Assembly: GCF_014196205.1 (NCBI RefSeq)
Contig: NZ_JACIDE010000021.1
Location: 1-57,154, forward strand
Length of the DNA stretch: 57,154 nucleotides
Origin: Anoxybacteroides voinovskiense
GTDB taxonomy: Bacteria; Bacillota; Bacilli; Bacillales; Anoxybacillaceae
Direction: 5' to 3'
Within the stretch, counting starts at the first letter, position 1, and every line of letters starts with the position of its first letter. A program made the position numbers and the translations under genes. Shown here in pieces: positions 8,393 to 31,951 of this stretch. A model generated the notes under the pieces. The model ran no database searches. It was not told the DNA's origin and saw nothing but the letters and a program-made list of their open reading frames with translations.

Positions 8393-8475
8393 CTTTCCTA
8401 AAAAACAATGCATCGATATGAAAAATTGTGGTACAATGAGGGGCGATGGCTGGAAGAGATGGAGGAAAATCGAGA

Positions 8476-9723
8476 ATGCTCTTAATGATTAAACCTCTTA
8501 TTGTGAATATCACAATATTATTGTCATTAACGTTTAACGCTAATTTGTTTTTTCCGTTTCGTGAACGAATCATTTTGACGCTACGTCAACAAGTTGTTTA
8601 CGGGCTTGTGTCGGCGTTTGCAGCGGCATTATGCATGTTTTATCCGATTGAAACGTTAGGCGAAACGAATTTTGATTTTCGGATGATTGTCATTTTAATT
8701 GTGACGCTATATGTCGGATGGATTGCCGGCGGAATATGTACGGCGATTGTTGTTATCATGCGGCTATTGATTGGTGGTTCGTTTGCATGGATTGGCGTGC
8801 TCGTATCGCTTGTGGCGTTTGCTGTGGCGTTATTGTTTCGCCCAGTATATATGAAAGCGCAGCATAAATGGATGTACGCTATTGTTATTGCTGTTTTGTA
8901 TTCTTTTTTTTATTTTACCATTATTGTTCAGACTGTTTCTTTTTTGAGCGTGGATTTTTATCTTGTCTATTTTGCGATGTTTTTGTTGACATATATGATG
9001 GTCTATTTTTTAATTGAGCGCCTGATTATGTATAACCATCAGTTTGATGAGATGGTATATGTCGATAAGTTGACGATGGTCAGCGAAATGGCGGCATCAT
9101 TTGCTCATGAAATTCGCAACCCAATTACAACGGTGCGCGGGTTTATTCAATTGTTGCAAACAAGCACGAAAGACGAACAGCTGCAACAATTCGCCCCGCT
9201 CATTTTAGAAGAGCTAGACCGCGCCAATAAAATTATTACCGACTATTTGCAGTTGGCGAAGCCGAACGATTTTCGCGTCCGACCGATCGATTTGCATCAT
9301 GTGCTTCGCGATTGTGTGCAGCTGATTCAGCCGTTAGGGGCATTTGCAAACGTAGCGGTTGAGTGGGATCGCCATGGCGAATGTCGCGTATTGGGCGATG
9401 AACAATATTTAAAACAGTCGCTTTTAAATATTATGAAAAATGCAATTGAAGCGATTGAAGGTAGCGGGGTTGTGAAAATTTCCACCGAAGCGCATTCGCA
9501 GCGCAATGTGGTAAAAGTGATTATTGAAGATAACGGCAAAGGAATGACGGAAGAAGAATTGAAAAAAATCGGCTTGCCGTACTATACGACAAAATCGAAA
9601 GGGACAGGGCTAGGAAGCATGATTTCGAACCGCTTAATTCGCGAAATGGGCGGAACGATTCATTATACGAGCCAACTCGGCAAAGGAACGCGCGTCGAAA
9701 TTACGCTGCCGCTTGTAAAATAG
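8476..9723 (+). CDS. Membrane histidine kinase with 5TM-type sensor (KinB-like)
   Basis: The product is a 415-residue sensor kinase. Residues 1-190 hold about six hydrophobic helices with little extracellular sequence, like the 5TMR-LYT/KinB type of sensor. The dimerisation helix carries the phospho-accepting His211 in SFAHEIRNPITTVRGF. The ATPase domain shows the N box LLNIMKNAIEAI, G1 DNGKGM and G2 GTGLG. An in-frame ATG exists at 8446, but GGAGG at 8461-8465 favours ATG 8476. No response regulator is adjacent, which fits an orphan kinase such as those feeding Spo0F/Spo0A; that is inference. The DUF1906 gene follows after 60 bases. Confidence 0.85.
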   Translation: MLLMIKPLIVNITILLSLTFNANLFFPFRERIILTLRQQVVYGLVSAFAAALCMFYPIETLGETNFDFRMIVILIVTLYVGWIAGGICTAIVVIMRLLIGGSFAWIGVLVSLVAFAVALLFRPVYMKAQHKWMYAIVIAVLYSFFYFTIIVQTVSFLSVDFYLVYFAMFLLTYMMVYFLIERLIMYNHQFDEMVYVDKLTMVSEMAASFAHEIRNPITTVRGFIQLLQTSTKDEQLQQFAPLILEELDRANKIITDYLQLAKPNDFRVRPIDLHHVLRDCVQLIQPLGAFANVAVEWDRHGECRVLGDEQYLKQSLLNIMKNAIEAIEGSGVVKISTEAHSQRNVVKVIIEDNGKGMTEEELKKIGLPYYTTKSKGTGLGSMISNRLIREMGGTIHYTSQLGKGTRVEITLPLVK

Positions 9724-10567: not shown

Positions 10568-11473
10568 ATGGAGAAAAAACGTGAAATTTTATTAGAGAGC
10601 GGAACGAATGAATTAGAGATTGTCGAATTTTTCATTGGCGCAAACCCGTTTGCCATTAACGTGATGAAAGTGCGGGAAATTTTAAACCCTGTGCCGACGA
10701 CAAAAGTGCCGCACGCTCATCCGCATGTTGAAGGGATTATCGAGTTGCGCGGGGAGGTGCTTCCGGTCGTTGATATGGCGAAAGCGCTCGGCTTGCCTCC
10801 TTCGGAAACACCAGCACAAGATAAATTTATCGTTGCGGAATTTAATCAGCAAAAAGTCGTGTTTCACGTGCACAACGTGACGCGCATTCACCGCATTTCG
10901 TGGAAACAAATCGAAAAACCGTCGCAAATGTACCAAGGAATTGACGGACAAATTATTGGGGTCATTAAGCTTGACGGCAAAATGATTTTACTGCTTGATT
11001 TTGAAAAAATAATTGTCGATATCAATCCACAAACAGGAATTAACGTCGAGCAAGTAAAAAAGCTTGGCAAGCGAGAACGGTCCAATAAAAAAATTGTCGT
11101 TGCAGAAGATTCGCCATTGTTGCGCAAACTGTTGCACGATACGCTTGCGGAAGCAGGATATGTATTTGTCGAGTTTTTTGAAAACGGAGAAGAAGCACTT
11201 CGCTATTTACAGACGATTGTGAAAGAAGGAACGCCGATTGAGCAAGAAGTGCAGCTTGTTATTACCGATATTGAAATGCCGCAAATGGATGGTCACCACC
11301 TGACAAAGCGCATTCGGGAAGACGAGCGATTAAAAAAATTGCCAGTCGTCATTTTCTCGTCGCTTATTACCGACGACCTTCGCCATAAAGGGGAGAAGGT
11401 CGGGGCAACCGCGCAAGTAAGTAAGCCGGAAATTGGAGAGTTAGTGAAAGTGATTGATCAATACGTTTTATAA
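10568..11473 (+). CDS. cheV: Chemotaxis coupling protein CheV (CheW-like + receiver)
   Basis: The 301-residue protein joins a CheW-like adaptor (about residues 15-155; VEGIIELRGEVLPVVDM is the hallmark) to a receiver domain (about 175-300). The receiver has the acidic pocket VVAEDS, the phosphorylatable aspartate in VITDIEMPQMDG and the lysine in QVSKPE. CheV couples chemoreceptors to CheA and takes part in adaptation. In B. subtilis it also lies near patA and kre. ATG 10568 follows GAGAGGG. The start of the HPt-REC-GGDEF-REC gene comes only 31 bases later with no terminator between, so co-transcription with the six-gene operon is possible. I found no sigma-D promoter match upstream. Confidence 0.93.
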   Translation: MEKKREILLESGTNELEIVEFFIGANPFAINVMKVREILNPVPTTKVPHAHPHVEGIIELRGEVLPVVDMAKALGLPPSETPAQDKFIVAEFNQQKVVFHVHNVTRIHRISWKQIEKPSQMYQGIDGQIIGVIKLDGKMILLLDFEKIIVDINPQTGINVEQVKKLGKRERSNKKIVVAEDSPLLRKLLHDTLAEAGYVFVEFFENGEEALRYLQTIVKEGTPIEQEVQLVITDIEMPQMDGHHLTKRIREDERLKKLPVVIFSSLITDDLRHKGEKVGATAQVSKPEIGELVKVIDQYVL

Positions 11474-11504
11474 TGATCCATCATAACGAGTAAGGGGATC
11501 GCTA

Positions 11505-13112
11505 ATGGATAAATACAAACAATATTTTTTTCAAAATATCCGTAAAAAGCTTGAGGAATGGGAAGCGGTTGAAACGATTCCACATCAGGAAGTGTATCGT
11601 TTTCTTCATTCGATGGCGGGAACTGCTGCAATTATCGGCTTAGAGGACGTTGGGAAAAAGGCTCGTCAATTAATGGATGCGTTAAATGAAAACGACGACA
11701 AAATGTGGTCGGTTGACGATGTGAAGCAATATATATTTGACTTATTAGAGTCATGTTACGAAAACGGAGAAGGCGCGCTTGCTTCGTTTCGCGGGAAACG
11801 GGCGAAGCAAGGCGAGGAGCCGGTGATTTTATTAATTGATGATGATACGTCGTTTTTAATGTATATGAAAGAGAAGTTGGAGAATATTGGATGGTATGTC
11901 GTTGCGATTGCCAATCCAGAAAAAGCAATTACGTCGTTTTATGACGTTCGCCCAGATTGTGTCGTCATTGACATTCATATGAAAGAAACAGACGGTTTTG
12001 CTGTATTAGAATTTTTAAAAGAGAAACTAAAGCAGCAGTTCATCCCAACGATGATGGTTAGCGTCGACAATAGCAAAGACGTGCGAATAAAAAGCTATGA
12101 AATGGGCGCGGACGATTTTATTCAAAAACCGTTCGATTTAGATGAATTTATTGTACGTGTCAAACGACAGCTCGAACGAAAAAGACATATTGACGAAGTG
12201 TTATTGCTTGATGAATTAACACATGTGTATAACCGCAAATATTTAAAGCAAGCATATGCCTTATTACAGAGCGAATGGCAGCGCTTAAAAGAGCCGTTTT
12301 GTTTAGCTGTTCTCGATCTTGACCATTTTAAGCAAGTAAACGACCGTCACGGTCATTTAGTTGGCGATGTCGTATTACGGGAGTTTGCTAACTTTTTAAA
12401 ACAAGGGCTACGCGTAAGCGATATTATCGTCCGTTTTGGCGGTGAAGAGTTTGTCGTATTGTTTCCAAAAACGCAGTTGAGTGAGGCACGCGACGCGCTT
12501 AACCGCCTGCGCGAAACGTTTATGAAGCATACGTTTCACGAAGGAAACACGACGTTTTCTTGCACGTTTTCGTGCGGAGTCGTCGAAATTACAGATGCAA
12601 GCGAGCCGCTCGAACATTGGCTTCGTCTTGCCGATAACGCCTTATATGAAGCGAAAGAAAATGGGCGAAACCAAGTCGTTAGCGCAGCTTCTTCCCAAGT
12701 AGCCGCCCATCCAAAAGTGATGAAAATTGCTGTCGTAGACGATGACCCGATTATGCGAACGATTATTACCGACATCGTCACCAAACTGCCTTGTAACGGA
12801 AAAGTAAAGCATGAACTGCAAACGTTTAAAGATGGGATCGAATTTATTGCGTCGGATTGGCATCAAGACGAATCCGCATGCTTAGTTCTTTTAGACGGCG
12901 TTATGCCGAAAATGGACGGCTTAGAAGTATTGCAGTGGATTCGCACACAAAAACGTTCCGACCGCTACAAAGTCATTATGCTTACATCAAGGCGAAGCGA
13001 AAGCGACATCGCTCGCGCACTTGAACTTGGCGCGGACGATTATATGACGAAACCGTTTAAATTACTTGAACTTGAGGCAAGAATATGCCAAATGATGAAA
13101 AGGATGAGTTAA
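11505..13112 (+). CDS. HPt-REC-GGDEF-REC diguanylate cyclase and phosphorelay protein
   Basis: The 535-residue protein has four domains. An HPt domain (about 1-90) has the phospho-histidine at His35 in HSMAGTAAIIG. Receiver 1 (about 103-225) has LLIDDD, the aspartate in VVIDIHM and the lysine in QKPF. A GGDEF domain (about 235-390) has an intact GGEEF at 312-316 and an inhibitory-site RVSD at 303-306, five residues upstream, so it should be an active, product-inhibited c-di-GMP synthase. Receiver 2 (about 408-533) has the aspartate in LLDGVMPKMDG and the lysine in TKPF. It can both relay phosphate and make c-di-GMP. AAGGGG precedes the ATG. Its TAA is followed without a gap by the GTG of the next gene, so it heads a translationally coupled operon. 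Confidence 0.92.
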   Translation: MDKYKQYFFQNIRKKLEEWEAVETIPHQEVYRFLHSMAGTAAIIGLEDVGKKARQLMDALNENDDKMWSVDDVKQYIFDLLESCYENGEGALASFRGKRAKQGEEPVILLIDDDTSFLMYMKEKLENIGWYVVAIANPEKAITSFYDVRPDCVVIDIHMKETDGFAVLEFLKEKLKQQFIPTMMVSVDNSKDVRIKSYEMGADDFIQKPFDLDEFIVRVKRQLERKRHIDEVLLLDELTHVYNRKYLKQAYALLQSEWQRLKEPFCLAVLDLDHFKQVNDRHGHLVGDVVLREFANFLKQGLRVSDIIVRFGGEEFVVLFPKTQLSEARDALNRLRETFMKHTFHEGNTTFSCTFSCGVVEITDASEPLEHWLRLADNALYEAKENGRNQVVSAASSQVAAHPKVMKIAVVDDDPIMRTIITDIVTKLPCNGKVKHELQTFKDGIEFIASDWHQDESACLVLLDGVMPKMDGLEVLQWIRTQKRSDRYKVIMLTSRRSESDIARALELGADDYMTKPFKLLELEARICQMMKRMS

Positions 13113-14162
13113 GTGCGACAGCCAGCTATCGTTTACTTTTTCGTTCTGTTTATAAGCTTGCTCATCGTATTAACAAGTTTGTTTCTTTATCTTGTTATCC
13201 GAAAGGCAGCCGAAAATGAAAGGCGACGGAAAATTGATGCGTATAAAACTTCTTATCAACAAACCGTCTTTCGTTACTTAAACGAAGGGATTGGCGAAGG
13301 GGAGCTTTCGTGTCGCTCCCCGCTAAAACAACAGGCGCTCCTTGAATTGTTCGAAGAGTTTTCGAGATTAATAGAAAGCGAGCATGTTCAAGCGCGCATT
13401 CGTGCATTCGCGGAAACCCATTTTCAACCAATGATTCGCAAGCAACTGTTTCATCGACGCTGGGGGGTTCGGATGAATGCGTTATTTTATATTGAAGATT
13501 TTCAGATGAAGGTGATGATTAACGATTTAGAGCGGCTATATCAATCGGCGAAATTAACAAAGAGCGAAGAAATTCAACTATTAAAAATATACGCGATATT
13601 CGACTGCCCTAAGCTTTATGAACGAATGCTTGCCCCGAAATATCCGTTGACGGAATTTGCGTACCGGCTATTGTTTCGCCATATGAACGATGAGACACTG
13701 AAAGCGATCGTTCACCGTTTCGCACAATGGCCGCCGCTGATGCAATATGCGTTCATCGATATTGTAGGGATTCGTAATCGAAGCGAATATGGCGTGTATT
13801 TAGAGCAATTGCTAGAAAGCGAGTCTGAAGAAATTCGCATTCGTTCGTTGAAAGCGATGGCGACAATGGGGTATTTTCTTTCACACGAAAAACTAATCCA
13901 CTTCCTTTCGTCCCCGCTATGGCAAGAGCGGCTGATGGCGATAAAAGTGTGCGGAAAAATCCGCGCCAATGAATGTATCCCACACCTCGTTTCGCTATTG
14001 TCTGACCCAATATTTTCTGTGCGTTCGCAAGCTGCACAGGCGCTATTGCGGATGGAAAACGGTTCACAATGGCTAAAAGAAGTCGCAACTTCTGCAGACG
14101 ACCCGTTTGCCCGCGATATGGCGCGCGAATGGCTAGAAAGAGGGGTGGAAGTATGGGGATAG
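13113..14162 (+). CDS. Membrane-anchored HEAT-repeat-like protein
   Basis: The 349-residue protein has one N-terminal membrane helix (about residues 7-29) and then a long helical region. The last third contains HEAT-like repeats: EEIRIRSLKAMATMGY, ERLMAIKVCGKIRANECIPH and FSVRSQAAQALLRM. No catalytic motif is seen, and it probably acts as a scaffold for the synthase that follows. GTG at 13113 touches the previous stop, so translation depends on the upstream gene. Its last 10 bases overlap the start of the glycosyltransferase gene. I do not know a named family for the whole protein. Confidence 0.8.
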   Translation: MRQPAIVYFFVLFISLLIVLTSLFLYLVIRKAAENERRRKIDAYKTSYQQTVFRYLNEGIGEGELSCRSPLKQQALLELFEEFSRLIESEHVQARIRAFAETHFQPMIRKQLFHRRWGVRMNALFYIEDFQMKVMINDLERLYQSAKLTKSEEIQLLKIYAIFDCPKLYERMLAPKYPLTEFAYRLLFRHMNDETLKAIVHRFAQWPPLMQYAFIDIVGIRNRSEYGVYLEQLLESESEEIRIRSLKAMATMGYFLSHEKLIHFLSSPLWQERLMAIKVCGKIRANECIPHLVSLLSDPIFSVRSQAAQALLRMENGSQWLKEVATSADDPFARDMAREWLERGVEVWG

Positions 14163-15562
14163 ATATATGGTATACGTTCGTTTCCGTTGTCGGGTGGTTT
14201 GTCTTTTTGTTTATGGTGGCAGTTATCGCCTTTTACACATTTTTATTGCTCGTTTCCCTCGTCCAACTTCGCAAATCATATCAATTAGATGAGTGGGAAC
14301 CGTACGAAGAACTGCTCGATGTTAGTTATGCGAAACCGCTCTCGATCTTAGTTCCAGCGTATAACGAATCGGCCGGAATTTTTGGAACGGTTCGGTCGCT
14401 GCTAAGCATCGAATATCCTGAATATGAAATTATTGTCATTAACGACGGTTCGACCGATGATACGCTTGCAAAGTTAATCGAGTCGTTTCAGCTTGTGCGT
14501 ATCAACCACGTCATTCGTCAGCAGCTAAAAACAAAACGAGTGAAAGCGGTATACCGTTCGAAGCTGTATCGGCATTTATTTGTCATCGATAAAGAAAATG
14601 GTGGCAAGGCAGACGCATTAAACGCAGGCATTAACGTGTCGCGCTATCCGTATTTTTGCTCGATTGATGGCGATTCGGTGCTAGAGCGAAGTGCGTTTTT
14701 AAAAGTGATGAAGCCGATTATTGATTCCGATGGGGAAGTCATTGCTTCCGGCGGGAGTATCCGCATCGCAAACGGCTGTGAAATTGAAAGTGGGGAAATT
14801 GTGAAAGTTGGCTTATCGCGTCATCCGCTTGTTGTTATGCAAGTAATTGAATATTTGCGCGCGTTTTTAATGGGACGAATCGGGTTAAGCCGCCATAATT
14901 TACTGCTTATCGTATCTGGTGCGTTCGGTGTGTTTTCGAAACGATGGGTCATTGAAGCGGGTGGATACGCCCATACAGTTGGGGAAGATATGGAATTAGT
15001 CGTTAGGCTTCATCGCTTAATAAAAGAACGAAAAGAGTCGAAAAAAATTGTGTACGTTCCTGACCCTGTTTGTTGGACAGAGGCGCCTGAATCATTGAAA
15101 TATTTGCGGCGGCAACGAAGCCGGTGGCATCGCGGCTTATTGGAAAGCTTATGGATACATCGCCGCCTCATTTTTAACCCTAAATATGGCTCGATTGGGC
15201 TTGTTTCCATGCCGTATTTTTTATTCATCGAATTTTTCGGTCCAGTCGTCGAATTGCTTGGATATGTCGTGATGCTCGTCTCGCTATTTTTCGGCGGCGT
15301 ATATATCGAATTTGCGATTCTACTTTTTTTATTATCGGTTATTTACGGCTCGGTTTTTTCGATGGCTGCCGTGCTTTTAGAAGAATGGACGGTACGAAAA
15401 TTTCCGAACGTATCCGACATCGTTCGTTTATTTCTATTTTCGCTCACCGAGTCGCTATGGTATCGCCCATTAACGGTATGGTGGCGCTGTGAAGGGATTG
15501 TTGATGTGCTTCGGAAAAAGAGAGGATGGGGAGAAATGACAAGAAAAGGTGTGTCGAAATGA
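14153..15562 (+). CDS. Processive family-2 glycosyltransferase, membrane synthase
   Basis: The 469-residue integral membrane enzyme resembles IcaA/BcsA-type polysaccharide synthases. It has N-terminal membrane helices, a GT-A domain with LVPAYNESAGI and VINDGSTDD, the metal-binding D172-G-D174 (SIDGDSV), the base-providing aspartate D279 (GEDMEL) and the processivity motif Q321-R-S-R-W325, then several C-terminal membrane helices. Such enzymes polymerise a sugar nucleotide and extrude the chain. No PilZ domain is present, so any c-di-GMP control must use another receptor. An earlier in-frame ATG exists at 14069, but AGAGGGGTGG favours 14153, overlapping the HEAT gene by 10 bases. The sugar is unknown. 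Confidence 0.88.
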   Translation: MGIDIWYTFVSVVGWFVFLFMVAVIAFYTFLLLVSLVQLRKSYQLDEWEPYEELLDVSYAKPLSILVPAYNESAGIFGTVRSLLSIEYPEYEIIVINDGSTDDTLAKLIESFQLVRINHVIRQQLKTKRVKAVYRSKLYRHLFVIDKENGGKADALNAGINVSRYPYFCSIDGDSVLERSAFLKVMKPIIDSDGEVIASGGSIRIANGCEIESGEIVKVGLSRHPLVVMQVIEYLRAFLMGRIGLSRHNLLLIVSGAFGVFSKRWVIEAGGYAHTVGEDMELVVRLHRLIKERKESKKIVYVPDPVCWTEAPESLKYLRRQRSRWHRGLLESLWIHRRLIFNPKYGSIGLVSMPYFLFIEFFGPVVELLGYVVMLVSLFFGGVYIEFAILLFLLSVIYGSVFSMAAVLLEEWTVRKFPNVSDIVRLFLFSLTESLWYRPLTVWWRCEGIVDVLRKKRGWGEMTRKGVSK

Positions 15563-18500
15563 AAGAGCGTCGTGTTACTCGCATATTGCTTCTATATCTT
15601 CTGTTGCTTCTTGCGCTCGTTTCCTCGCCATATTGGCTTTGGCAGTTAAAGCCGGCAAAACCATTAAATTTACTAATTATGGATAAAACGGTTCCTGACG
15701 CGACGTATCGTGAACATAAAGGGCTTGTCTGGCTATTAAGCCAACAAAAATACGTATTTAGCGACGGAACACCGTATGATTTAGCAAACGATTATGTCGG
15801 GTTTGTGCCGAAAAAAAATGGGGAATATGCGGTGCGGCAGCTTCCCCGTTCGCTTTCGCGCTATGATGCCGTTTACGTTGCTGATACGTATGGCGTGTAT
15901 GAAGAGGAATTTTTGAAAAACGACAAAACAGGCAAACGTTCAGCAAAAATATACGGTGGGCTAACGGAAAAAGAGGTAAATGCTCTCCATCAGTTTGTGA
16001 TGGCAGGTGGAAAAACGCTTCTCGCCGAGTTTAACTCGTTCGCCCATCCGACGCCGATAAACGTCCGAAAGCAGTTTTATTCGCTGTTAAACGTCGAATG
16101 GTCGGGATGGATTGGTCGGTATTTTCCGAACTTGCAAAGTCGGGAAGTGCCTGTTTGGGTGAAAGACAACTACGAAAAACAATACGGGCGTCCGTTTCGC
16201 TTTCGTGGCGCTGGGATTGTGCTCGTCGACGAAAACGACCGGCTGGTAGTGCTTGACCGGCAAATGATTGGGAAAAAAGGGGTCACGTTTTCGACGACAA
16301 AAGCGGGGGAAGCGCAACTCGGAGAACAAATTACTACTCCGTATTCGTATTGGTTTGATATCGTTACCCCGCTCAATCCAAACGAAGTATTAGCAACGTA
16401 TACGTTGTCGCTATCGGCACGTGGAGAAGATACGTTGCGCGCGCTCGGATTGCCAACAAAATTTCCTGCGGTCGTCCATCATACGAATCGCGTCTATAAC
16501 GCGTATTATTTTTGTGGAGACTACGCGGATGAAGCGGAAGTACCGGACATTTACGAAACGGTTGGCTTTACGACATGGCGAAAATGGATGGCTACCGATA
16601 GCCCAGACAACGCGTCATCATTTTATTGGAAAGCGTATGTCCCAATGATGACCGAGATTTTACAAAATATAACGAAGCCACACAACACACTGAAAGCGAC
16701 GGTACAAACGCCGAAAGTGGACGGGATTCACCTTGCTGGTACGGTCGGAAAAGATTATTTGCAAATCTATCGAAACGGGAAATGGACGAATTTATTGATT
16801 AAAGGTGTCAATATGGGCATTTCGAAACCGGGCGCATTTCCTGGCGAAACGGCGATTACGAAAGAACAATATTTCCGCTGGTTTAAGCAAATTGGCGCGA
16901 TGGGGGCAAACGCGGTGCGCATCTATACGATTCATCCGCCAGCCTTTTACGAAGCGTTTTATGAATATAACCAAATTGCCGCGCGTCCGCTTTATTTATT
17001 CCATGGGGTATGGGTAAACGAAGAAACGCTCTTGCGGACGAACGATGCGTTTGCGAAAGCAAATACGGATGAATTCGCCACGGAAATCAAACGAACGATC
17101 GACATCGTCCACGGAAAAGCGAATGTGCCGAAACGAAGAGGGCATGCAAGCGGGGCGTATCGTTACGACATTTCGCCGTATGTGCTCGGCTGGATTTTCG
17201 GCATTGAGTGGGATCCGACCGTAGTGAAAGCGACAAATGACAAACATAAAGGGCTTGTGGATTATAAAGGGACATACATTCAGACAGAAAAAGCACAGCC
17301 GTTTGAAATTTGGCTCGCGCAAATGATCGATGAAGCGATCGATTATGAAACGAAGACGTACCATTGGCAACGCCCGGTGAGCTTTACAAATTGGGTGACG
17401 ACCGACTTATTAACGCATCCGAGCGAGCCGCTCGAAAAAGAAGACATGGTCACCGTCAACCCGAATGTGATGAAAAAGACAACCAATTTGCATAGCGGAC
17501 TATTTGCCTCGTATCATATTTATCCGTACTATCCAGACTTTTTAAACTATGAAAAGAAATATGTCGACTATATCGATCATCGTGGGCAAAAAAACAACTA
17601 TGCCGGCTACTTGCACGATATGAAACAAGCGCATGACATGCCCGTATTAGTCGCGGAATTCGGTGTTCCGTCGTCACGAGGAATGACGCACCGTAACGTG
17701 TATGGGATGAATCAGGGGTTTCATTCGGAAAAAGAGCAAGGCGAAATCGACGGGAAGTTATTTGAAGACATTGTGCAGGAAAAAATGGCGGGCGGTCTTG
17801 TGTTTGTTTGGCAAGACGAATGGTTTAAACGAACGTGGAACACGATGGACTACGACGACCCGAATCGGCGTCCGTTTTGGTCGAACGCGCAAACAAACGA
17901 ACAACAATTTGGGTTGCTCAGCTTTGACCCTGGCAAAGATGCTACGGATATGATTAAAGTCGACGGTCGCGCGCAAGATTGGGCGTTTACTGAAGGGACG
18001 CAAGCGTTTCGTGAAAAAGGGCGTGCGCTGTATGTAACAAGCGACGAACGGTACGTCTATTTGCGCATCGACACGACGATTGCAACCAATAAAACGACGT
18101 ACGTGTTATTCAACACGATTCCAAACCAAGGACAATCGCGGATTTTACACGTGCCAAACGTAAAAACGTCTGATATTGATTTTATTTTAGAAATAAAGGG
18201 GACGACGGAAGCGCGATTATGGGTAGACAGCTATTACGATACGTTTTATTATCATTATGGGCATTTATTGCACATGATTAAAGAAGCACCGTATGCCAAA
18301 AAGAAAGATAACGGCGTATATCACCCGATTCGTTTGACGCTCAACAAACAATTGGACGTTGGCGGGAAAAAAGTGCCGTTTCAGTCGTACGAAACAGGAG
18401 TTTTCCGATTTGGGACAGCCAATCCAGAAGATAAGAACTATGATTCGCTCACGGATATTAGCGTCAACGCTAAGCGAACGATGTACGAAATTCGTATTCC

Positions 18501-18783
18501 GTGGCTCCTTCTTAATATAAAAGACCCGAGCACGCGTGAAGCGATGGGCGATGTTTGGTCAGGAGGGCTAACAAGCAACGTGCATTTGGACGGAATTCGT
18601 ATCGGGCTATATGAAACAGATGGAAAAACATCGTTCGCTTATCCTACGCTACAAAACGATGCATTGCCTGCCAATCAGTTTTATCATTACCAATGGCAAC
18701 CGTGGGAAGAGCCCGTATATCATGAACGGCTCAAACAATCGTATGAGGAACTGAAAAAAGTGTTTGAACGGGAAGGAGACTAA
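15559..18783 (+). CDS. Membrane-anchored glycoside hydrolase (clan GH-A-like) with C-terminal carbohydrate-binding domain
   Basis: The 1074-residue protein starts with one membrane helix (about 6-27), leaving the rest outside the cell. Residues of roughly 40-330 resemble a class-I amidotransferase-like fold seen in some glycosidases. The middle is a TIM barrel: GANAVRIYTIHPPAFYEAF, then GWIFGIEWDP with candidate acid/base E550, and VLVAEFGVPSSRG with candidate nucleophile E700. GGLVFVWQDEWFKRTWN follows. From about 800 the sequence (KVDGRAQDWAF, LYVTSDERYVYLRID) resembles CBM9-like domains. It probably trims the polymer made by the adjacent synthase. ATG 15559 overlaps the synthase stop (ATGA). 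The GH family cannot be fixed by eye. Confidence 0.78.
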   Translation: MKERRVTRILLLYLLLLLALVSSPYWLWQLKPAKPLNLLIMDKTVPDATYREHKGLVWLLSQQKYVFSDGTPYDLANDYVGFVPKKNGEYAVRQLPRSLSRYDAVYVADTYGVYEEEFLKNDKTGKRSAKIYGGLTEKEVNALHQFVMAGGKTLLAEFNSFAHPTPINVRKQFYSLLNVEWSGWIGRYFPNLQSREVPVWVKDNYEKQYGRPFRFRGAGIVLVDENDRLVVLDRQMIGKKGVTFSTTKAGEAQLGEQITTPYSYWFDIVTPLNPNEVLATYTLSLSARGEDTLRALGLPTKFPAVVHHTNRVYNAYYFCGDYADEAEVPDIYETVGFTTWRKWMATDSPDNASSFYWKAYVPMMTEILQNITKPHNTLKATVQTPKVDGIHLAGTVGKDYLQIYRNGKWTNLLIKGVNMGISKPGAFPGETAITKEQYFRWFKQIGAMGANAVRIYTIHPPAFYEAFYEYNQIAARPLYLFHGVWVNEETLLRTNDAFAKANTDEFATEIKRTIDIVHGKANVPKRRGHASGAYRYDISPYVLGWIFGIEWDPTVVKATNDKHKGLVDYKGTYIQTEKAQPFEIWLAQMIDEAIDYETKTYHWQRPVSFTNWVTTDLLTHPSEPLEKEDMVTVNPNVMKKTTNLHSGLFASYHIYPYYPDFLNYEKKYVDYIDHRGQKNNYAGYLHDMKQAHDMPVLVAEFGVPSSRGMTHRNVYGMNQGFHSEKEQGEIDGKLFEDIVQEKMAGGLVFVWQDEWFKRTWNTMDYDDPNRRPFWSNAQTNEQQFGLLSFDPGKDATDMIKVDGRAQDWAFTEGTQAFREKGRALYVTSDERYVYLRIDTTIATNKTTYVLFNTIPNQGQSRILHVPNVKTSDIDFILEIKGTTEARLWVDSYYDTFYYHYGHLLHMIKEAPYAKKKDNGVYHPIRLTLNKQLDVGGKKVPFQSYETGVFRFGTANPEDKNYDSLTDISVNAKRTMYEIRIPWLLLNIKDPSTREAMGDVWSGGLTSNVHLDGIRIGLYETDGKTSFAYPTLQNDALPANQFYHYQWQPWEEPVYHERLKQSYEELKKVFEREGD

Positions 18784-19160
18784 TGGGAATGGCGAAAATT
18801 TTGCTTGCGGAAGATGAAGAAGTATTGCGGATGTTAGTCGTCGATACGCTCGAAGACGAAGGATATGAAATTGATGAGGCGTGCGACGGGCAAGAAGCGA
18901 TTGAACTCATTAAAGAAAATGAGTATGACTTAATTTTGCTTGACTACATGATGCCGATTTATACAGGGCTCGAAGTGATTCAACAAGTGCGCGAACTCCC
19001 TGAGAAAAAGCACGTGAAAATTATGATGCTGTCCGCCAAAAGCCAGCAGGCGGATCAGCAGCGCGTGCTCGAAGCTGGCGCGGATTATTTTATGGCAAAA
19101 CCGTACAGCCCGCTAGAGCTAGTAAAACGAATCGAGGAGATTTTGCATGGAGAAAATTAG
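18783..19160 (+). CDS. Stand-alone receiver (CheY-like) protein
   Basis: The 125-residue protein is a single receiver domain with no output. All active-site residues are visible: acidic LLAEDEE, phosphorylatable aspartate in LILLDYMMPIYTG, threonine/serine position LSA and lysine in MAKPYSP. It should shuttle phosphate between the hybrid kinase encoded next and the HPt domain encoded by the first gene of the operon. ATG 18783 shares its first base with the previous TAA (TAATG) behind GGAG. A second in-frame ATG at 18789 is less well spaced. It overlaps the next gene by 14 bases. Confidence 0.92.
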   Translation: MGMAKILLAEDEEVLRMLVVDTLEDEGYEIDEACDGQEAIELIKENEYDLILLDYMMPIYTGLEVIQQVRELPEKKHVKIMMLSAKSQQADQQRVLEAGADYFMAKPYSPLELVKRIEEILHGEN

Positions 19161-22023
19161 CCGCTATTTTCGCCAAAGTTTAACGCGACAATTTATTGGA
19201 CTAATGAGCCTATTTATCGTCCTTTTTTTAGTCGGGGGAGCACTCGTTCTTTGGAAACAGCAGACGCTTGTCAATACGTTTGAAGCAAAGCGTGAGCAAT
19301 TGCAACAGAAGGAAAGATATGCCGAGCAGCTAGATCGAGCGTTTACCCAAGCATTTTTCGACGCTCGCGGCTATTTGGCGTTTGGACGAAAAGAGTTTAA
19401 ACAAAGCATTTATCAACAAAAAGAGCAAGTGGTAGCAACGATGCAAAAGCTAAAGCCGCTTGCGAAAACAGCAGAAGACCGGCAGCTGTTAGAAGAGGCA
19501 GCGGCGTTTACATCGTATTATTTCGACGATTTAGTAAAAAAAGCGATTGCTGATTTTGAAGCAGGGAATATACAAGCGGTATTGAAAGCGTCGGAAAACG
19601 GTGGTACTGCCTCGATTCAACGGTTTCAAAAGCAGCTTTCGGAATATCACTCGTCATTAGTCGAGCAAATCGAAAATGAGTATAAACAGTTGAAAATGAC
19701 ACAGGCGCAACTGCAATATTCATTTTTATTGTTTATTTTTTTGATGATGCTTTTATTAATGAGCATTATGCGCATGATGGCGAAGCGAATCGGAAGACCG
19801 TTGAATGCGTTTGCGACGGCGGCGGAAAAATTTGCGCAAGAGGAAACAGATGTACATTGGTCGTTCGCAAATGAGCGAGATGACGAGATTGGAAAACTAT
19901 CAAGGGCGTTCCAGAAAATGATCTATAGCATTCGGGAAAAAGAAGATAGCCTAGTTGCCCAAAACGAAGAATTGCTTGCCCAGCAAGACGAACTAGAGTC
20001 ACAACAAGCGGAACTAGAGCAAGCGCTCGAAACGATGCAACGGAGAGAAGAAGAATTAAGGCGGCGAAACGAGTTTATTAACGGGCTTTCTAATTCGCTT
20101 GACAAACAAGAAGTGCTCGATAGCATTGTTTGTAATATATGCAAAGTAATGGATGCCGACCGCGGCATGATCGTATTGTTAAATGATAAAAAATCATATG
20201 CAGCGTTTGGGGTATCCGCACAAGGGGTACAGCAATTTTTACATGAGCTAGATAACGGAATGTACCAACGATTGCAGAAAACGAAGCAACCGTTTTCGGT
20301 AAAGCGAGAATTGCCGACGTCAGAGAAAGGGTATTACGAAGAAGCGCTTTATTCGTACGATTTGGTTTTGCCAGTGCTTTCTGCGCAGCGAGAAGTAGAA
20401 GCAATAATGATGTTTAGCCGTTTCCGCGGCGACTTTTCGCCGCATGAAATCGAAGAATATGAACGTTTGACGAAACAAGTGTCGATTTCGTTACAAAAAA
20501 TTCGCTTATACGAAGAGTCGGAAAAAGACCGGCGCATGACGCAAGATATTTTAAATAACATTCAAGAAGGCATTCAACTTGTTGACATGCGCGGGGTAAA
20601 CTTAATGATGAATACACAACTTGCGAACTTTTTACACGTGGATGTAAACGAAATTTCCGAAGCGCCGTATGAACAATGGAAATCGCTGCTGCTGCAAAAA
20701 GTAGTGGATGAGAAAAACTTGTCCGATTATTTAGATCGTGTTTTGCTGCACGATACACTGGAGACAAAATCGTTTACGTACCACGTTAAAGGCGAGAAAA
20801 AAGTGATCCATATGTACGCAGAGCCGCTTTATCGTGGAACGGAACGATTTGGTACGGTTTTTGTTCATCGTGACATTACGAAAGAGTTTGAAGTCGATCA
20901 AATGAAATCGGAGTTTGTTAGCACCGTCAGCCATGAACTGCGCACGCCGCTTTCTAGCGTGCTTGGCTTTACAGAATTAATGCTAAATAAAGAACTGAAG
21001 CCAGAGCGGCAGCGAAAATATTTAACGACGATATACCAAGAAGCAAAACGGCTGACTGCGCTTATTAACGACTTCTTAGACGTCCAGCGGATGGAATCCG
21101 GACGGCAAACGTACGACAAAAAATACGAAGATATCGTTCCGATTATTCAAAACGTTATTGAAACGCAAAAAGTAAACACAACGATTCATGAGTTTATGAT
21201 TCAAAAAGAAACAAATCGGACAATTGTGCTTGGCGACCGCGACAAACTAGCGCAAGTGTTTACGAATTTACTGAGCAATGCGGTGAAATATTCCCCAGAC
21301 GGCGGAAAAATAACGGTACGCATTTATGAACAAGGCGACCGGTTAGCGATTGACGTCACAGATGAAGGGCTTGGTATTCCAGCGGAGGCAATTCCGCATT
21401 TGTTCACGAAATTTTACCGTGTCGACAACTCTGACCGCCGCCGCATCGGTGGAACAGGGCTTGGGTTAGCGATTGTCAAAGAAATTGTGAAAGCACATGA
21501 CGGAGAAATTGCTGTCACGTCTGAAGTGAAAAAAGGGAGTACGTTTACCATAAGCTTGCCGCTTGTTGCTGTCGAAACGGATCCACAAAACGACGTACCA
21601 ATAGATAAAGGAATGAATGTAATTATTGTCGAAGATGACCGCAATTTAGCGTCATTATTAGAAGCAGAGCTATCCGATAGCGGTTTTTCCGTGAAAAGCT
21701 TTAAAAACGGAAAAGAGGCAATTGGGGCGATAAAAGCGGAAAAGCCGGCGGCAGTAGTGCTTGACATTATGCTTGAAGAAGGCGAAATGTCTGGATGGGA
21801 CGTTCTTGAAAAAATGAAAGCAGACAAAGAGCTTTCTTCCATTCCAATTATTGTGTCATCCGCGCTTGAGGAAAAAGAAAAAGGATTGATGCTTGGGGCA
21901 AGCGATTATCTCATTAAGCCGTATCAACCGAGCCAGCTGACAAAAACGATTTTGCATATGTTATTAAAACAAGAACGCCAAGGCGAAATTTTAGTGCCGG
22001 TAACGGATGAAGAGGATAAATGA
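19147..22023 (+). CDS. Hybrid histidine kinase: sensor-HAMP-GAF-PAS-HisKA-HATPase-REC
   Basis: The 958-residue protein opens with a membrane helix (about 15-35), an extracellular helical sensor like CHASE3 or four-helix bundles (about 40-185), a second membrane helix (about 190-210) and a HAMP domain. A long Gln/Glu-rich coiled coil (about 265-310), a GAF domain and a PAS domain follow. HisKA carries His596 in VSHELRTPLSSV. HATPase boxes are NLLSNAVKYSPDG, DEGLGIP and GGTGLGLAIV. A C-terminal receiver has VEDDR, an aspartate in VVLDIMLEEGEMSG and a lysine in LIKPYQP. It is the likely input kinase of the operon, which ends at the terminator at 22029. Confidence 0.92.
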   Translation: MEKISRYFRQSLTRQFIGLMSLFIVLFLVGGALVLWKQQTLVNTFEAKREQLQQKERYAEQLDRAFTQAFFDARGYLAFGRKEFKQSIYQQKEQVVATMQKLKPLAKTAEDRQLLEEAAAFTSYYFDDLVKKAIADFEAGNIQAVLKASENGGTASIQRFQKQLSEYHSSLVEQIENEYKQLKMTQAQLQYSFLLFIFLMMLLLMSIMRMMAKRIGRPLNAFATAAEKFAQEETDVHWSFANERDDEIGKLSRAFQKMIYSIREKEDSLVAQNEELLAQQDELESQQAELEQALETMQRREEELRRRNEFINGLSNSLDKQEVLDSIVCNICKVMDADRGMIVLLNDKKSYAAFGVSAQGVQQFLHELDNGMYQRLQKTKQPFSVKRELPTSEKGYYEEALYSYDLVLPVLSAQREVEAIMMFSRFRGDFSPHEIEEYERLTKQVSISLQKIRLYEESEKDRRMTQDILNNIQEGIQLVDMRGVNLMMNTQLANFLHVDVNEISEAPYEQWKSLLLQKVVDEKNLSDYLDRVLLHDTLETKSFTYHVKGEKKVIHMYAEPLYRGTERFGTVFVHRDITKEFEVDQMKSEFVSTVSHELRTPLSSVLGFTELMLNKELKPERQRKYLTTIYQEAKRLTALINDFLDVQRMESGRQTYDKKYEDIVPIIQNVIETQKVNTTIHEFMIQKETNRTIVLGDRDKLAQVFTNLLSNAVKYSPDGGKITVRIYEQGDRLAIDVTDEGLGIPAEAIPHLFTKFYRVDNSDRRRIGGTGLGLAIVKEIVKAHDGEIAVTSEVKKGSTFTISLPLVAVETDPQNDVPIDKGMNVIIVEDDRNLASLLEAELSDSGFSVKSFKNGKEAIGAIKAEKPAAVVLDIMLEEGEMSGWDVLEKMKADKELSSIPIIVSSALEEKEKGLMLGASDYLIKPYQPSQLTKTILHMLLKQERQGEILVPVTDEEDK

Positions 22024-22028
22024 TGTGA

Positions 22029-22057
22029 AGACTGCCTAGAACGGGCGGTCTTTTTTT
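22029..22057 (+). terminator. Terminator of the polysaccharide/phosphorelay operon
   Basis: AGACTGCC (22029-22036) pairs with GGCGGTCT (22044-22051) through one G-T pair and runs into seven T's. It lies eight bases after the last stop codon. Confidence 0.85.
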
Positions 22058-22106
22058 GTTTAAAAAAAGGAATTTTATGCATAATAACGGTAATGGAGGG
22101 ATGAAG

Positions 22107-23558
22107 ATGTGGATTCCGTCATCGTTAGCAGAAGTGGAAGCAACGATTCAAGCGACGTGGGGCGAAACGCCCGATTTAGTCGTTTGTCGTTTAAACGTAC
22201 GGCAGCTGAAAAAAGACGTAGTGCTTTTATATTTAGATAGCTTAGCAGATAAAAACTCGATTAATAATAACGTTTTGCAGCCCCTTCTTTTTGAAACACA
22301 CGATGCAACAAACGTAGAAGAGGTAGCTGTTTTAATCGGGCAAAAAAAATATACAAATTTATGGTCAGAAGTTGAAACGGCTGTTTTTCAAGGGGAAAGC
22401 GTTTTATTTATTGACGGGGAGCAACAAGCGCTCCTTTTAGATACGCAAGGATGGCCGCAGCGAGCGATTGCTGAGCCGCAAGTCGAATCATCAATTAAAG
22501 GAGCGCATCAAGGGTTTATTGAAACGAGCGGAAAAAATATTGCCCTTATTCGTCGCTACCTTCCGAATCGAGAGTTAAAAGTGAAAGAGCTTGTCGTCGG
22601 AAGGAGAGGAAAAACAAAAGTGGCGCTTCTTTATTTAGAAGATGTTACCCATCCAGAAGTATTAAAAGAGTTAGAAGACCGCATTCGCATGATTGACGTC
22701 GATGCGGTCGTGAATACAGGCGAATTAATGCAGTTGATTGAAGATAATCCTTTTTCACCGTTTCCACAATTTTTGTTAACGGAACGTCCCGATGCTGCGG
22801 TTAGCAATTTGTTGCAAGGACGCATCGTCGTTGTTGTAGATCGTTCGCCAAGCGTCATGATTGCGCCGATGTCATTTATTGCGTTTTTTCAAACGATTGA
22901 TGACTATAGTACGCGGTGGATGATTGCGACGTTTTTGCGGCTGTTGCGTACGTTAGCGTTTTTTATCGCCATTTTTTTGCCGTCGCTTTACATTGCGGCG
23001 ATTTCCTTTCACTATGAACTATTGCCGCTCAATTTAATTTTAACGGTCGGCGAATCGCGCGAACAAGTGCCACTACCGCCGATATTGGAGGCGATTTTAA
23101 TGGAATTAGCGATCGAAATGTTGCGCGAAGCAGGGCTTCGCTTGCCAGCGCCAATTGGACAAACGGTCGGGATTGTCGGCGGGGTCGTCATCGGGCAGGC
23201 AGCGGTGCAGGCAGGGCTCGTCAGCAACATTATGGTCGTTGTCGTTGCCATTACCGCAATTGGCTCGTTTATTATTCCAAACCCCGACATGTCCGAATCG
23301 GTGCGGTTGATTCGTTTTCCAATGATGATTGTTTCTTCGTTGTTCGGAGTCATTGGCATGGCGATTGGGTTGATGATTTTAGTCATTCATCTTGCATGTT
23401 TAGAATCGCTTGGCACTCCGTTTGGTAGCCCGTTTGCACCCGTTCGGTTTCGCGACTGGAAAGATACGGTCGTTCGTTTTCCACTTTGGACGATGCGTAG
23501 CCGTCCGCTCTCTGCCCATCCCATTCAGCTAAAACGACAAACGAAAACGAGGAAATGA
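22107..23558 (+). CDS. Spore germinant receptor A subunit (GerA/GerK A family)
   Basis: The 483-residue protein is an A-type germinant receptor subunit of the spore inner membrane. It has a large soluble N-terminal part with ALIRRYLPNRELKVKELVVGRRGKTKVALLYLEDV and the segment ending in ISDNPFSPFPQ-like NPFSPFPQFLLTERPD, then about five membrane helices including RLPAPIGQTVGIVGGVVIGQAAV. Together with B and C subunits it senses nutrients. The ligand cannot be read from sequence. The start is ATG 22107, spaced seven bases from GGAGG; a longer frame from 22056 is less likely because it would begin within the preceding terminator. The start of the B subunit gene follows three bases after the stop. 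Confidence 0.93.
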   Translation: MWIPSSLAEVEATIQATWGETPDLVVCRLNVRQLKKDVVLLYLDSLADKNSINNNVLQPLLFETHDATNVEEVAVLIGQKKYTNLWSEVETAVFQGESVLFIDGEQQALLLDTQGWPQRAIAEPQVESSIKGAHQGFIETSGKNIALIRRYLPNRELKVKELVVGRRGKTKVALLYLEDVTHPEVLKELEDRIRMIDVDAVVNTGELMQLIEDNPFSPFPQFLLTERPDAAVSNLLQGRIVVVVDRSPSVMIAPMSFIAFFQTIDDYSTRWMIATFLRLLRTLAFFIAIFLPSLYIAAISFHYELLPLNLILTVGESREQVPLPPILEAILMELAIEMLREAGLRLPAPIGQTVGIVGGVVIGQAAVQAGLVSNIMVVVVAITAIGSFIIPNPDMSESVRLIRFPMMIVSSLFGVIGMAIGLMILVIHLACLESLGTPFGSPFAPVRFRDWKDTVVRFPLWTMRSRPLSAHPIQLKRQTKTRK

Positions 23559-23561
23559 TAG

Positions 23562-24668
23562 ATGGCGATGACACGTATCCCGCAAAACGAAATTACGATT
23601 TTTCAATACGTCTTTTTTATCGTCGGTGCACAAATCGGTATCGGCATTTTATCATTGCCGGCAGATGTGGCAAAGGGGAGCGGAACGGACGGCTGGATTG
23701 CGATTATTTTTGGCGGAGTGCTATCGATAATCGCTAGTTTAATTATCGTCTCCATTATGGAACAACATCCGCAAGATACGATTTTTGATTTGTTATTACG
23801 CTATTTTGGCAAATGGTTCGGGAAATTGCTGTCGCTTTTATTTTCGCTTTATGCGGCGCTGGCGGCAACGACAGTCGTATTTACGTCGATTCATCTCGTC
23901 CAAGTATGGGTGTTGCCGCAAACGTCGAACTACTGGATTATGATTTTGTTTATGATTCCAGGTTTTTTAGCTGCACGTCAAGGAGTGCGCATTCTCGGCC
24001 GGTATGCGGAAATCGTATTTTATATGACGCTTTGGATGCCGTTATTAATTGCCGTGCCGTTAAAAGACGGTCATTTGCTTCATTTATTGCCAGTCATTAA
24101 AGAAGGGTGGCTGCCGATTATAAAAACGGTGAAACAGACGATTTTATCGTTTTTAGGGTTTGAATTAGCGTTTTTGCTTTATCCATATGTGAAAGAAAAG
24201 CATTTAGCGAAAAAAGGGATTATTATCGCCAACGGCATTTCCATGGCAGCTTTTGTATTTGTGACGCTTGTCGGCTTTATTTTTTACAGCCCTGACGAAA
24301 TTACCGAATACGTCTGGCCGACGTTGTCGTTATTAAAAACGATTGAGTTTCCGTTTATGGAACGGTTTGAAATTATTTTTTTAGCCGCATATTTATTTGT
24401 TTTATCGACAACAGGCATCCCGTATATTTTTACCGCTGTGTTCGGCATTGCGCACGTATTGGAACAGTACGACCATGTGCGCGTTCTCGTTGTTGGCGTT
24501 GGTCTGTATATTATTGTTTCGTTTTTATACACCCCGCCGTTCGCCGATTTACAAGCATTTTCTGATTGGTGGGGAAAAACAGGAACGATTGTTGGCTACA
24601 TTTTTCCGGTCGTTTTATGGCTATATATGAAATTGTATCAATGGCTAAGAGGGGGAAAACCGTCATGA
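23562..24668 (+). CDS. Spore germinant receptor B subunit (GerB, APC-type permease fold)
   Basis: The 368-residue protein has ten hydrophobic helices and the amino-acid permease-like fold of B subunits. The opening PQNEITIFQYVFFIVGAQIGIGIL is typical: the first helix breaks at GAQIGIGIL, which forms part of the ligand site in the known family. It acts in the spore inner membrane with the A and C subunits. ATG 23562 follows GAGGAAATG. Its stop overlaps the start of the C subunit gene (ATGA), so the three genes are one operon, expected to be transcribed in the forespore. I could not assign a confident sigma-G promoter. Confidence 0.93.
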   Translation: MAMTRIPQNEITIFQYVFFIVGAQIGIGILSLPADVAKGSGTDGWIAIIFGGVLSIIASLIIVSIMEQHPQDTIFDLLLRYFGKWFGKLLSLLFSLYAALAATTVVFTSIHLVQVWVLPQTSNYWIMILFMIPGFLAARQGVRILGRYAEIVFYMTLWMPLLIAVPLKDGHLLHLLPVIKEGWLPIIKTVKQTILSFLGFELAFLLYPYVKEKHLAKKGIIIANGISMAAFVFVTLVGFIFYSPDEITEYVWPTLSLLKTIEFPFMERFEIIFLAAYLFVLSTTGIPYIFTAVFGIAHVLEQYDHVRVLVVGVGLYIIVSFLYTPPFADLQAFSDWWGKTGTIVGYIFPVVLWLYMKLYQWLRGGKPS

Positions 24669-25759
24669 AAGCTGCTGCTTTATTGCTTTGTGTAGCACTT
24701 TTCTTATCCGGCTGCGGCATGAACACGAAGTTGGATTCCTTAACAATGACGTTAACGCTTGGGCTTGATACAGATGGAGGAAAATTGCTCTCGTATTCAT
24801 CAAGCCCTGTGTTTAATAAAGATGCGAAAGAGCATACGGAAGTGATTGAAGTCAATGCGTCTTCCTTAAGGGAAGGACGGTATAAAATCGATTTATTTGC
24901 TTCTGGCCGGGCAGTCGGCGGGAAAATCCAAAACGTTGTGATCGGCAAAGCGCTTGCAAAGAAAAAAGAAATTCCTTCGTTGCTAGATGTGTTGTATCGC
25001 GATCCGAAAAACTCGACGACCGCTTTGCTCATCGTTTATGATGGACCAGTGAAAGAACTAATGGAATCGAAACAAAAAGATAAACCGCGCTTAGCGGTAG
25101 CGATTAAAGACTTAATTATGACAACGGCAGTAGATAAACAAACGGTCAAAACAAATTTACTCGATTTTCATCGAACACTATTTGATAAAGGATGTACACC
25201 GTTTGCATCAGAAATGACGCGGAAAAACGGGAAAATGATGGCGAACGGCACTGCGTTATTTGATAATAAAGGAAAATACGTCACTTCGCTGTCGCCGAAA
25301 GAAACGCCGTTTCTTCAGCTTTTGCGAAAAGAAATAAAACCGGCGATTCCGTTTACGCTCCGGACGGCGGCGTTGACAGGGAAAAAAGAAAATATTAGCG
25401 TATCGATAGAGCATGGAAAAGTTCGCTATGAAACACGGTATCGAAACGGTCGGTTTCAGTTTCATGTGCAAATCGATGCCGGGGTGATTATTACCGAAAA
25501 AATCGCCGATATTGACATCAGCAAAAAACAAAAGAAACTAGAAAAAATGATTGCTCACGAAATTAAAACAAAGACGACCGCCCTAGTAAAGACGTTTCAA
25601 CATCATCACGTCGACCCAGTCGGTTTTGGGCTGTATGCGCGGGCGTATGAATATGACCATTGGAAAAAAGTCGAGAACGATTGGGGCAAAGCGTTTGCCG
25701 CAGCGGACGTTTCTGTGTCTGTGAAAGCAAAAGTAATTAGCTATGGGGTCATCCACTAG
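24665..25759 (+). CDS. Spore germinant receptor C subunit, lipoprotein (GerC family)
   Basis: The 364-residue protein has a lipoprotein signal: a short basic start, hydrophobic LLLCVALFLSGC and the lipobox LSGC with its cysteine near residue 17. The mature part shows the three-domain GerC pattern, including FASGRAVGGKIQNVVIGKALAKK and the end KIEKMIAHEIKTKTTALVKTF-like stretch. It is anchored on the outer face of the spore inner membrane. A long upstream in-frame extension from 24566 lies inside the B subunit gene and lacks the signal peptide at its start, so ATG 24665 is chosen. The operon ends in a perfect palindrome shared with kre. Confidence 0.93.
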   Translation: MKAAALLLCVALFLSGCGMNTKLDSLTMTLTLGLDTDGGKLLSYSSSPVFNKDAKEHTEVIEVNASSLREGRYKIDLFASGRAVGGKIQNVVIGKALAKKKEIPSLLDVLYRDPKNSTTALLIVYDGPVKELMESKQKDKPRLAVAIKDLIMTTAVDKQTVKTNLLDFHRTLFDKGCTPFASEMTRKNGKMMANGTALFDNKGKYVTSLSPKETPFLQLLRKEIKPAIPFTLRTAALTGKKENISVSIEHGKVRYETRYRNGRFQFHVQIDAGVIITEKIADIDISKKQKKLEKMIAHEIKTKTTALVKTFQHHHVDPVGFGLYARAYEYDHWKKVENDWGKAFAAADVSVSVKAKVISYGVIH

Positions 25760-31890: not shown

Positions 31891-31951
31891 AAATGGAGAG
31901 CATCATATGGTATAATATGCGAAATGACGAGTGCAAAAAGAGGTGAGCAAC

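Follow-up and report, generated by a model that had tools for sequence, protein, structure and literature searches.

A predicted phosphorelay- and c-di-GMP-linked exopolysaccharide operon built on a HEAT–GT2 gene pair in Anoxybacteroides voinovskiense

The YdaJKLMN operon of Bacillus subtilis is an exopolysaccharide (EPS) operon with putative glycosyltransferases, in which a GGDEF protein with an RxxD motif, YdaK, is the receptor for cyclic di-GMP (c-di-GMP). The RxxD of YdaK lies at residues 202–205 and a putative RxxR at 157–160, and either substitution R202A or D205A abolishes EPS (PMC5422440). The Pel system is a polymer system without PilZ that is read by a degenerate GGDEF domain with RxxD and a further arginine; PelD requires R367, D370 and R402, and the Pel synthase is the GT4 protein PelF (PMC8461298). 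We analyzed an operon of six tightly packed genes in a 57,154-nucleotide stretch of Anoxybacteroides voinovskiense DNA (contig NZ_JACIDE010000021.1 of assembly GCF_014196205.1, positions 1 to 57,154, forward strand; hereafter the window). By its logic, the operon would belong with synthase-dependent exopolysaccharide systems that are read by GGDEF receptors through the inhibitory site (I-site). By its parts, it scores below the cut-off of every named synthase family against which it was tested. On the evidence of genes and residues, we hold it somewhat probable that a HEAT–GT2 synthase is switched by the product of the first gene, by way of a phosphorelay and the I-site. The operon spans positions 11505–22023 of the forward strand, downstream of cheV, as read from the list of open reading frames (ORFs) and their translations.

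10568–11473, forward strand: cheV (CheW–REC; Pfam CheW and Response_reg)
11505–13112, forward strand: HPt-REC-GGDEF-REC gene, the first gene (Pfam Hpt, two Response_reg, GGDEF)
13113–14162, forward strand: membrane HEAT protein (Pfam HEAT_2, 5e-14, and HEAT), with a GTG start immediately downstream of the preceding stop
14153–15562, forward strand: processive-type GT2 synthase of 469 amino acids (Pfam GT2; DGD, GEDM and QRxRW motifs)
15559–18783, forward strand: exoprotein of 1074 amino acids with one N-terminal transmembrane segment (Pfam families all under cut-off)
18783–19160, forward strand: single-domain receiver (Asp54; Pfam Response_reg)
19147–22023, forward strand: hybrid histidine kinase with two transmembrane segments (HAMP, GAF, HisKA with His596, HATPase and REC with Asp873, over Pfam cut-offs)
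22027–22053, forward strand: terminator-like stem of 11 pairs followed by a T run, which closes the operon

Each likeness has its limits. YdaK has transmembrane helices and a degenerate SDERI motif (PMC5422440), whereas the product of the first gene here has an intact GGEEF, no transmembrane segment by hydropathy, an HPt domain and two receivers. It is thus not a membrane-bound, degenerate YdaK, and the HEAT protein and the hybrid kinase are further differences from YdaJKLMN. The synthase separates the operon from Pel, as it is a GT2 protein and no GT4 family appears in the Pfam lists of the seven genes. Among the NCBIfam models, PgaC/IcaA of poly-N-acetylglucosamine (PNAG) synthesis (TIGR03937) scores best against the GT2, yet at 120.4 bits for a cut-off of 422.3, and the partner gene here is the HEAT gene. 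BcsA (TIGR03030) is likewise a processive GT2, but it scores 37.1 bits for a cut-off of 699.1 and the GT2 here has no PilZ match; the XrtG-associated glycosyltransferase (TIGR03111) scores 99.8 bits for 363.95. On these Pfam and NCBIfam results, the Pel, PNAG, cellulose and XrtG families were put aside. PleD is similar to the first gene in being a receiver-controlled diguanylate cyclase with an I-site, and the spacing of 31 residues between R303 and R334 is presumably that between R359 and R390 of PleD. The two differ in that the first gene has an N-terminal HPt domain and one receiver downstream of GGDEF, and its score against the PleD model (NF007135) is 274.9 bits for a cut-off of 474. We found no description of a HEAT protein with a GT2 polymer synthase in the open-licence literature of PubMed Central (PMC), with subscription papers and preprints outside that scope, nor any account there of the gene set, which an earlier first-pass annotation of this DNA had put forward as a candidate undescribed system. 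The accessible text of the Anoxybacillus flavithermus WK1 genome paper (PMC2614493) does not describe the operon, and the words "HEAT" and "glycosyltransferase" are absent from its main text.

The product of the first gene carries HPt His35, Asp156 in the first receiver, GGEEF, and Asp464 in the second, C-terminal receiver. GGEEF and the metal-binding aspartates D271 and D273 predict an active diguanylate cyclase. Five residues before GGEEF lies an RxxD sequence, R303-V-S-D306, as expected of an I-site receptor; with the additional R260 and R334, these residues would correspond to a primary and a secondary c-di-GMP site by comparison with YdaK and PelD. For the relatives, we read 119 loci in addition to the window, chosen by the exoprotein or by HEAT and not by GT2, with identical HEAT proteins counted once and only matches above 60 bits considered. 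A search of as many as three genes upstream of HEAT on the same strand found GGDEF-like domains at 76 of 105 loci (78 domains). The catalytic motif is found in 54 domains, 41 of them with RxxD. The remaining 24 lack the exact GG/GS-D/E-EF motif, yet RxxD is kept in 19. Three of these 24 deviate in the first glycine only (SGDEF in the second gene of locus L069, AGDEF in L097 and KGEEF in L108). Activity is possible for these three, and setting them aside leaves 18 of 21 domains with RxxD. The comparison covered the 44 columns whose conservation among the active domains is 75% or more. Of these, D306 (0.92), R303 (0.79) and R260 (0.71) are best kept in the 24 domains; the GGEEF and metal-aspartate columns are down to 0.04–0.46. 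R334 is present in 35 of 54 active domains, compared to 19 of the 24. As the I-site is kept in most relatives that are devoid of the catalytic motif, the protein of the first gene appears to be a better candidate for the c-di-GMP receptor than the HEAT protein.

The catalytic state changes at least seven times on a GT2 tree of 75 of the 76 loci, and five of these changes are forced by starred branches. The tree does not itself give the direction; repeated loss of catalysis is the simpler reading. At L064 (canonical motif) and L069 (SGDEF), a separate GGDEF gene immediately precedes the degenerate one, which gives the impression that two proteins have divided the making and the reading of c-di-GMP between them. 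If true, the series would document a route from active cyclase to receptor, in which a product-inhibition site is reused as a sensor and outlasts catalysis. The version in the window keeps the catalytic motif, the I-site and all relay residues, which makes it directly testable by single-residue changes.

The full set of residues for a phosphorelay (His596, Asp873, His35, Asp464 and Asp54) is present in the operon. Among the window and the earliest three batches of loci, which mostly cover 20 kb, a kinase of hybrid size is found near 18 of 19 HEAT genes that have an HPt–GGDEF gene, compared to 3 of 28 that do not (Fisher p 5e-9, uncorrected for kinship). Over all loci, many of them cut short at 12 kb, the counts are 34 of 56 and 3 of 49, respectively. 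The aspartate of the C-terminal receiver is intact in all 57 HPt-bearing rows, versus 9 of 20 others, where it is replaced by Asn, Glu or Ser; L069 is represented twice among the 20, and the receiver-less domain of L064 was left out. The HPt histidine is present in 51 of the 57 rows, and the first receiver of the first gene is often eroded among the relatives. This tendency of HPt, hybrid kinase and receiver aspartate to co-occur supports a relay of kinase, HPt and receivers within the operon, and with it the earlier claim that the operon carries its own relay parts. Taking HPt His plus receiver Asp as the relay pair and one partner for each of the 76 loci, 37 have both the pair and RxxD; another 14 have just the pair, 22 have just RxxD, and three have neither. 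Hence, 73 of 76 loci keep at least one of the two inputs.

These inputs would converge on the HEAT–GT2 pair. The HEAT protein has a single transmembrane segment by hydropathy (residues 11–29), and 150 of 397 genomes examined from the order have a member of its family, representing 53 of the 135 genera. The window's genome has one match to the HEAT profile, and genome G058, of the same genus, has neither the HEAT family nor the exoprotein. A thinner, phylum-wide draw of 398 genomes gave 14 with a match to the profile at E ≤ 1e-20, among them the genome of the window. GT2 is encoded directly downstream on the same strand for 104 of the 105 distinct HEAT genes (all but that of L213), and the genes overlap by a median of 4 bases. 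The gene-order search that the first-pass annotation had proposed was run at the level of the order, and the same gene order recurred at many loci, which argues that the operon is more than a chance arrangement.

A GT2-profile scan of named genomes placed the pair well beyond Bacillota. Among the best 80 of at least 389 confirmed stretches, 47 are closer loci (34–54% identity), which include Bacteroidota, Proteobacteria, Terriglobia, Nitrospira and one Thermoplasmatota-labelled record, and 33 are more distant GT2s. A usable upstream gene was available for 43 of the former and 25 of the latter. With Pfam HEAT_2 at E ≤ 0.01, HEAT repeats were found in the upstream gene of 36 of the 43 closer-family GT2s versus 2 of the 25 distant ones (Fisher p 5e-10). 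HEAT is not expected in some of the 43 upstream genes, namely those of L123 and of three likely fusions, and L162, perhaps one of the two control matches, looks like a family member; a narrower, earlier set had HEAT upstream in 27 of 29. Fourteen plasmid records matched, and five of these were opened. The pair is annotated as "HEAT repeat domain-containing protein" and "glycosyltransferase" in Deinococcus radiophilus, Mesorhizobium ciceri and the haloarchaeon Halosolutus; the gene upstream of GT2 on the Emticicia plasmid is a "hypothetical protein", and the stretch in the Paenibacillus cellulosilyticus record (H1) is without annotation. The three likely fusions (L135, L138 and L155, in records named Firmicutes, Bacillota and Acholeplasmatales) are GT2s with some 490–510 extra N-terminal residues. 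By hhalign, the profile of the extra part aligns with that of the HEAT family across just 62 columns (probability 93), and Pfam detects HEAT_2 there in L135 alone, below the cut-off. Two more candidates for fusion were dropped: L123 looks like an over-extended ORF in which Pfam finds no HEAT, and L126 is a GT2 with a sulfatase domain whose HEAT protein is a separate upstream gene. Because the two genes are adjacent across phyla, are annotated as pairs and are probably fused in places, the case for HEAT and GT2 acting as one unit is circumstantial but strong.

Within 8 kb of the pair, no GGDEF gene is annotated in the haloarchaeon, Mesorhizobium or Deinococcus, for which the gene tables are incomplete. 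The occurrence of HEAT–GT2 at such sites makes HEAT look like a constant subunit of the synthase, and we propose a two-part membrane synthase with HEAT as its constant subunit or adaptor. In the first-pass annotation HEAT was a candidate for the receptor; it would then itself bind c-di-GMP and activate GT2. It is indeed the constant partner of a GT2 that lacks PilZ, and with its single N-terminal transmembrane segment it is probably mostly cytosolic. That proposal has not fared well: the pair is found without a nearby annotated GGDEF gene in an archaeon and in bacteria, a receptor-type I-site is encoded in the adjoining gene, and just two columns, R304 and D330, are invariant across 27 HEAT relatives. 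We consider direct sensing by HEAT improbable. The absence of PilZ from GT2, which had been noted in that annotation, was borne out by Pfam, with no PilZ match. The genome does have two PilZ genes, and one of their products could act on GT2 in trans; as both genes sit on other contigs and the I-site offers a receptor in cis, we give this possibility very little weight.

The mechanism that we favor, with the HEAT–GT2 synthase switched through relay and I-site, would operate as follows. The hybrid kinase would autophosphorylate at His596 and pass the phosphoryl group to its own receiver and on to HPt His35, which would in turn donate it to the C-terminal receiver of the first protein (and to the lone receiver). 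Once phosphorylated, the C-terminal receiver would switch on the GGDEF domain, and the c-di-GMP produced would be read by the I-site of the same protein (R303, D306, R334 and R260). The c-di-GMP-loaded protein would then dock on HEAT and open GT2; HEAT and GT2 together would polymerize a nucleotide sugar and push the chain out, and the exoprotein would trim, bind or anchor the polymer outside the cell. Where a lineage has lost HPt and catalysis, the protein would act purely as a receptor for c-di-GMP from other cyclases. The genome of the window contains 12 GGDEF and 13 EAL matches. We infer the phosphotransfers, the synthesis and binding of c-di-GMP, the docking on HEAT and the production of polymer from sequence, and at that level the earlier idea of a synthase operon linked to both c-di-GMP and a phosphorelay is supported.

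Several observations weigh against this mechanism. For 29 of the 105 HEAT loci, the search of as many as three same-strand upstream genes turned up no GGDEF-like domain. Several HEAT–GT2 loci outside Bacillota have receivers, with no GGDEF gene seen nearby. The RxxD is missing in 13 of the 54 catalytically intact relatives, 11 of which are also without R334, and in 5 of the other 24 domains; the I-site is therefore not the receptor in every lineage. In an active cyclase, the I-site may serve simple feedback inhibition. Pair tests corrected for the tree, on catalytic state, I-site, HPt and receiver Asp, yielded 3 to 5 independent pairs, too few for significance; the direction was as expected for HPt paired with either receiver Asp or catalysis. 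These points bear on an alternative in which receiver phosphorylation is all that gates the synthase, the I-site gives product feedback only, and c-di-GMP acts elsewhere in the cell. The pairs with receivers and no annotated GGDEF in Mesorhizobium and Halosolutus, and several other loci that look alike, are what such gating would leave, as are the loss of RxxD from active relatives and the invariance of the receiver aspartate in the HPt rows. In Mesorhizobium, the pair comes after genes for an ATP-binding protein (probably the kinase), two response regulators and a YaiO outer-membrane barrel; beyond the pair, an Hpt gene is encoded on the opposite strand. The degenerate domains are the difficulty for this alternative. 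A GGDEF domain without the catalytic motif cannot need feedback, yet most such domains retain RxxD, often alongside a receiver without its aspartate. For this reason a feedback-only I-site is disfavored, and we regard gating by the receiver alone as unlikely, though it is the rival to be taken most seriously.

Going beyond the operon, HEAT–GT2 may be an ancient and so far undescribed class of two-subunit polysaccharide synthase, extending from Bacillota to Bacteroidota, Proteobacteria, Deinococcota and haloarchaea. Switches of the receiver type would be exchangeable between systems of this class and would dock on the HEAT solenoid. In Bacilli, the cyclase would have become its own c-di-GMP receptor by way of the inhibitory site, and several lineages would then have dropped the cyclase activity and kept the reading site. 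We put this forward tentatively, as the joint proposition falls somewhat short of an even chance. If true, it would describe a widespread family of envelope polymers unnamed so far, whose synthase partner, HEAT, was identified by gene order across phyla.

The nature of the polymer is hinted at by the neighbors of the pair in some relatives. The row downstream of the pair in Brevibacillus fortis (L144) comprises genes for a receiver-bearing protein and a nucleotide-sugar dehydrogenase, then glmS and glmU; L079 has the same row as far as glmS, and L140 and L102 as far as the dehydrogenase. In the haloarchaeon, a sugar phosphate nucleotidyltransferase and glmS follow the pair. Genes for glmS, glmU or the dehydrogenase are not present in the window's operon. 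Because these genes adjoin the pair elsewhere, they hint at a polymer of N-acetylglucosamine and its uronate. The GT2 sequence alone does not decide the product, and the enzyme might instead make a glycolipid or modify the wall. This we think highly doubtful, since the best NCBIfam model is that of a polymer synthase (PgaC/IcaA, far under its cut-off as it is), hyaluronan synthase aligns to GT2 residues 7–379 (E 6e-8), and the precursor genes just named stand in the gene row of some relatives. As a separate observation, the GT2 of L126 (6998–10423, Chryseobacterium gilvum) is fused to a sulfatase domain and an LTA synthase family gene follows GT2 in Emticicia, both of which hint at a step of polymer decoration.

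The exoprotein has its transmembrane segment at residues 9–27, an N-part (approximately 1–375) and a C-part (approximately 395–1074). It was labeled a glycoside hydrolase in the first-pass annotation, a label that the family searches do not uphold: there is no Pfam family over the cut-off, no NCBIfam match and no PDB match. GH113 stays short of the gathering score, with no match to the window's exoprotein at E 0.01 and marginal matches to 3 of 41 relatives (best E 0.0061). Glu550 and Glu700, in "GIEWDP" and "AEFGVP" settings, are near-invariant among the relatives. These settings resemble what we take to be the acid/base and nucleophile sites of clan GH-A. This resemblance makes a hydrolase plausible, and we would expect a clan GH-A-like barrel. 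The exoprotein is present in 97 of 249 genomes of the order, and its two parts are split, moved or absent in relatives: near the 105 HEAT genes, both parts were found at 50, one part at 20 and neither at 35, short loci included. The C-part also occurs as a separate gene of 675–768 amino acids (L075–L080 and others), in some loci without HEAT–GT2 beside it, as a family without a Pfam name. A protein of some 570–615 amino acids lies beside the stand-alone N-part in L082 (7622–9469), L083 (7771–9474) and L084 (10507–12291), where it perhaps replaces the C-part. Those of L083 and L084 have membrane segments and what we presume to be repeated phosphatase-like loops. The exoprotein genes of L106, L107 and L108 are apparently broken or split, which suggests that the system is undergoing loss in some lineages.

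As for the layout of the operon, the abutting or overlapping joins of the six genes, the position of cheV 31 bases upstream and the terminator after the kinase all hold as first annotated, and Pfam confirmed the domain labels with the exception of the glycoside hydrolase. The mechanical ORF for GT2 begins at 14069, with the ATG at 14153 as the likely start, and a PAS_7 match in the hybrid kinase is below the Pfam cut-off. No terminator-like site is listed in the 31-base gap after cheV, which is possibly co-transcribed with the operon. We regard cheV as a neighbor rather than a core part; it is immediately upstream of the HPt–GGDEF gene in 10 of 55 HPt-type loci. No c-di-GMP riboswitch was found in the window with Rfam at the gathering threshold, the sole match being the small RNA SR1 at 49566–49744 (forward strand). 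An EAL-domain protein with a C-terminal extension is encoded 10 kb from the operon (31931–33169, forward strand). We take it to resemble YkuI of B. subtilis, and it is a possible c-di-GMP phosphodiesterase or receptor. Directly downstream of the terminator are three genes (22056–25759, forward strand), presumably a spore germination receptor operon of the GerA type; L045 and L046 also have genes of comparable size downstream of the operon. A membrane histidine kinase is encoded upstream of cheV (8446–9723, forward strand), and a kinase of similar size precedes the operon in L045, L050 and L054.

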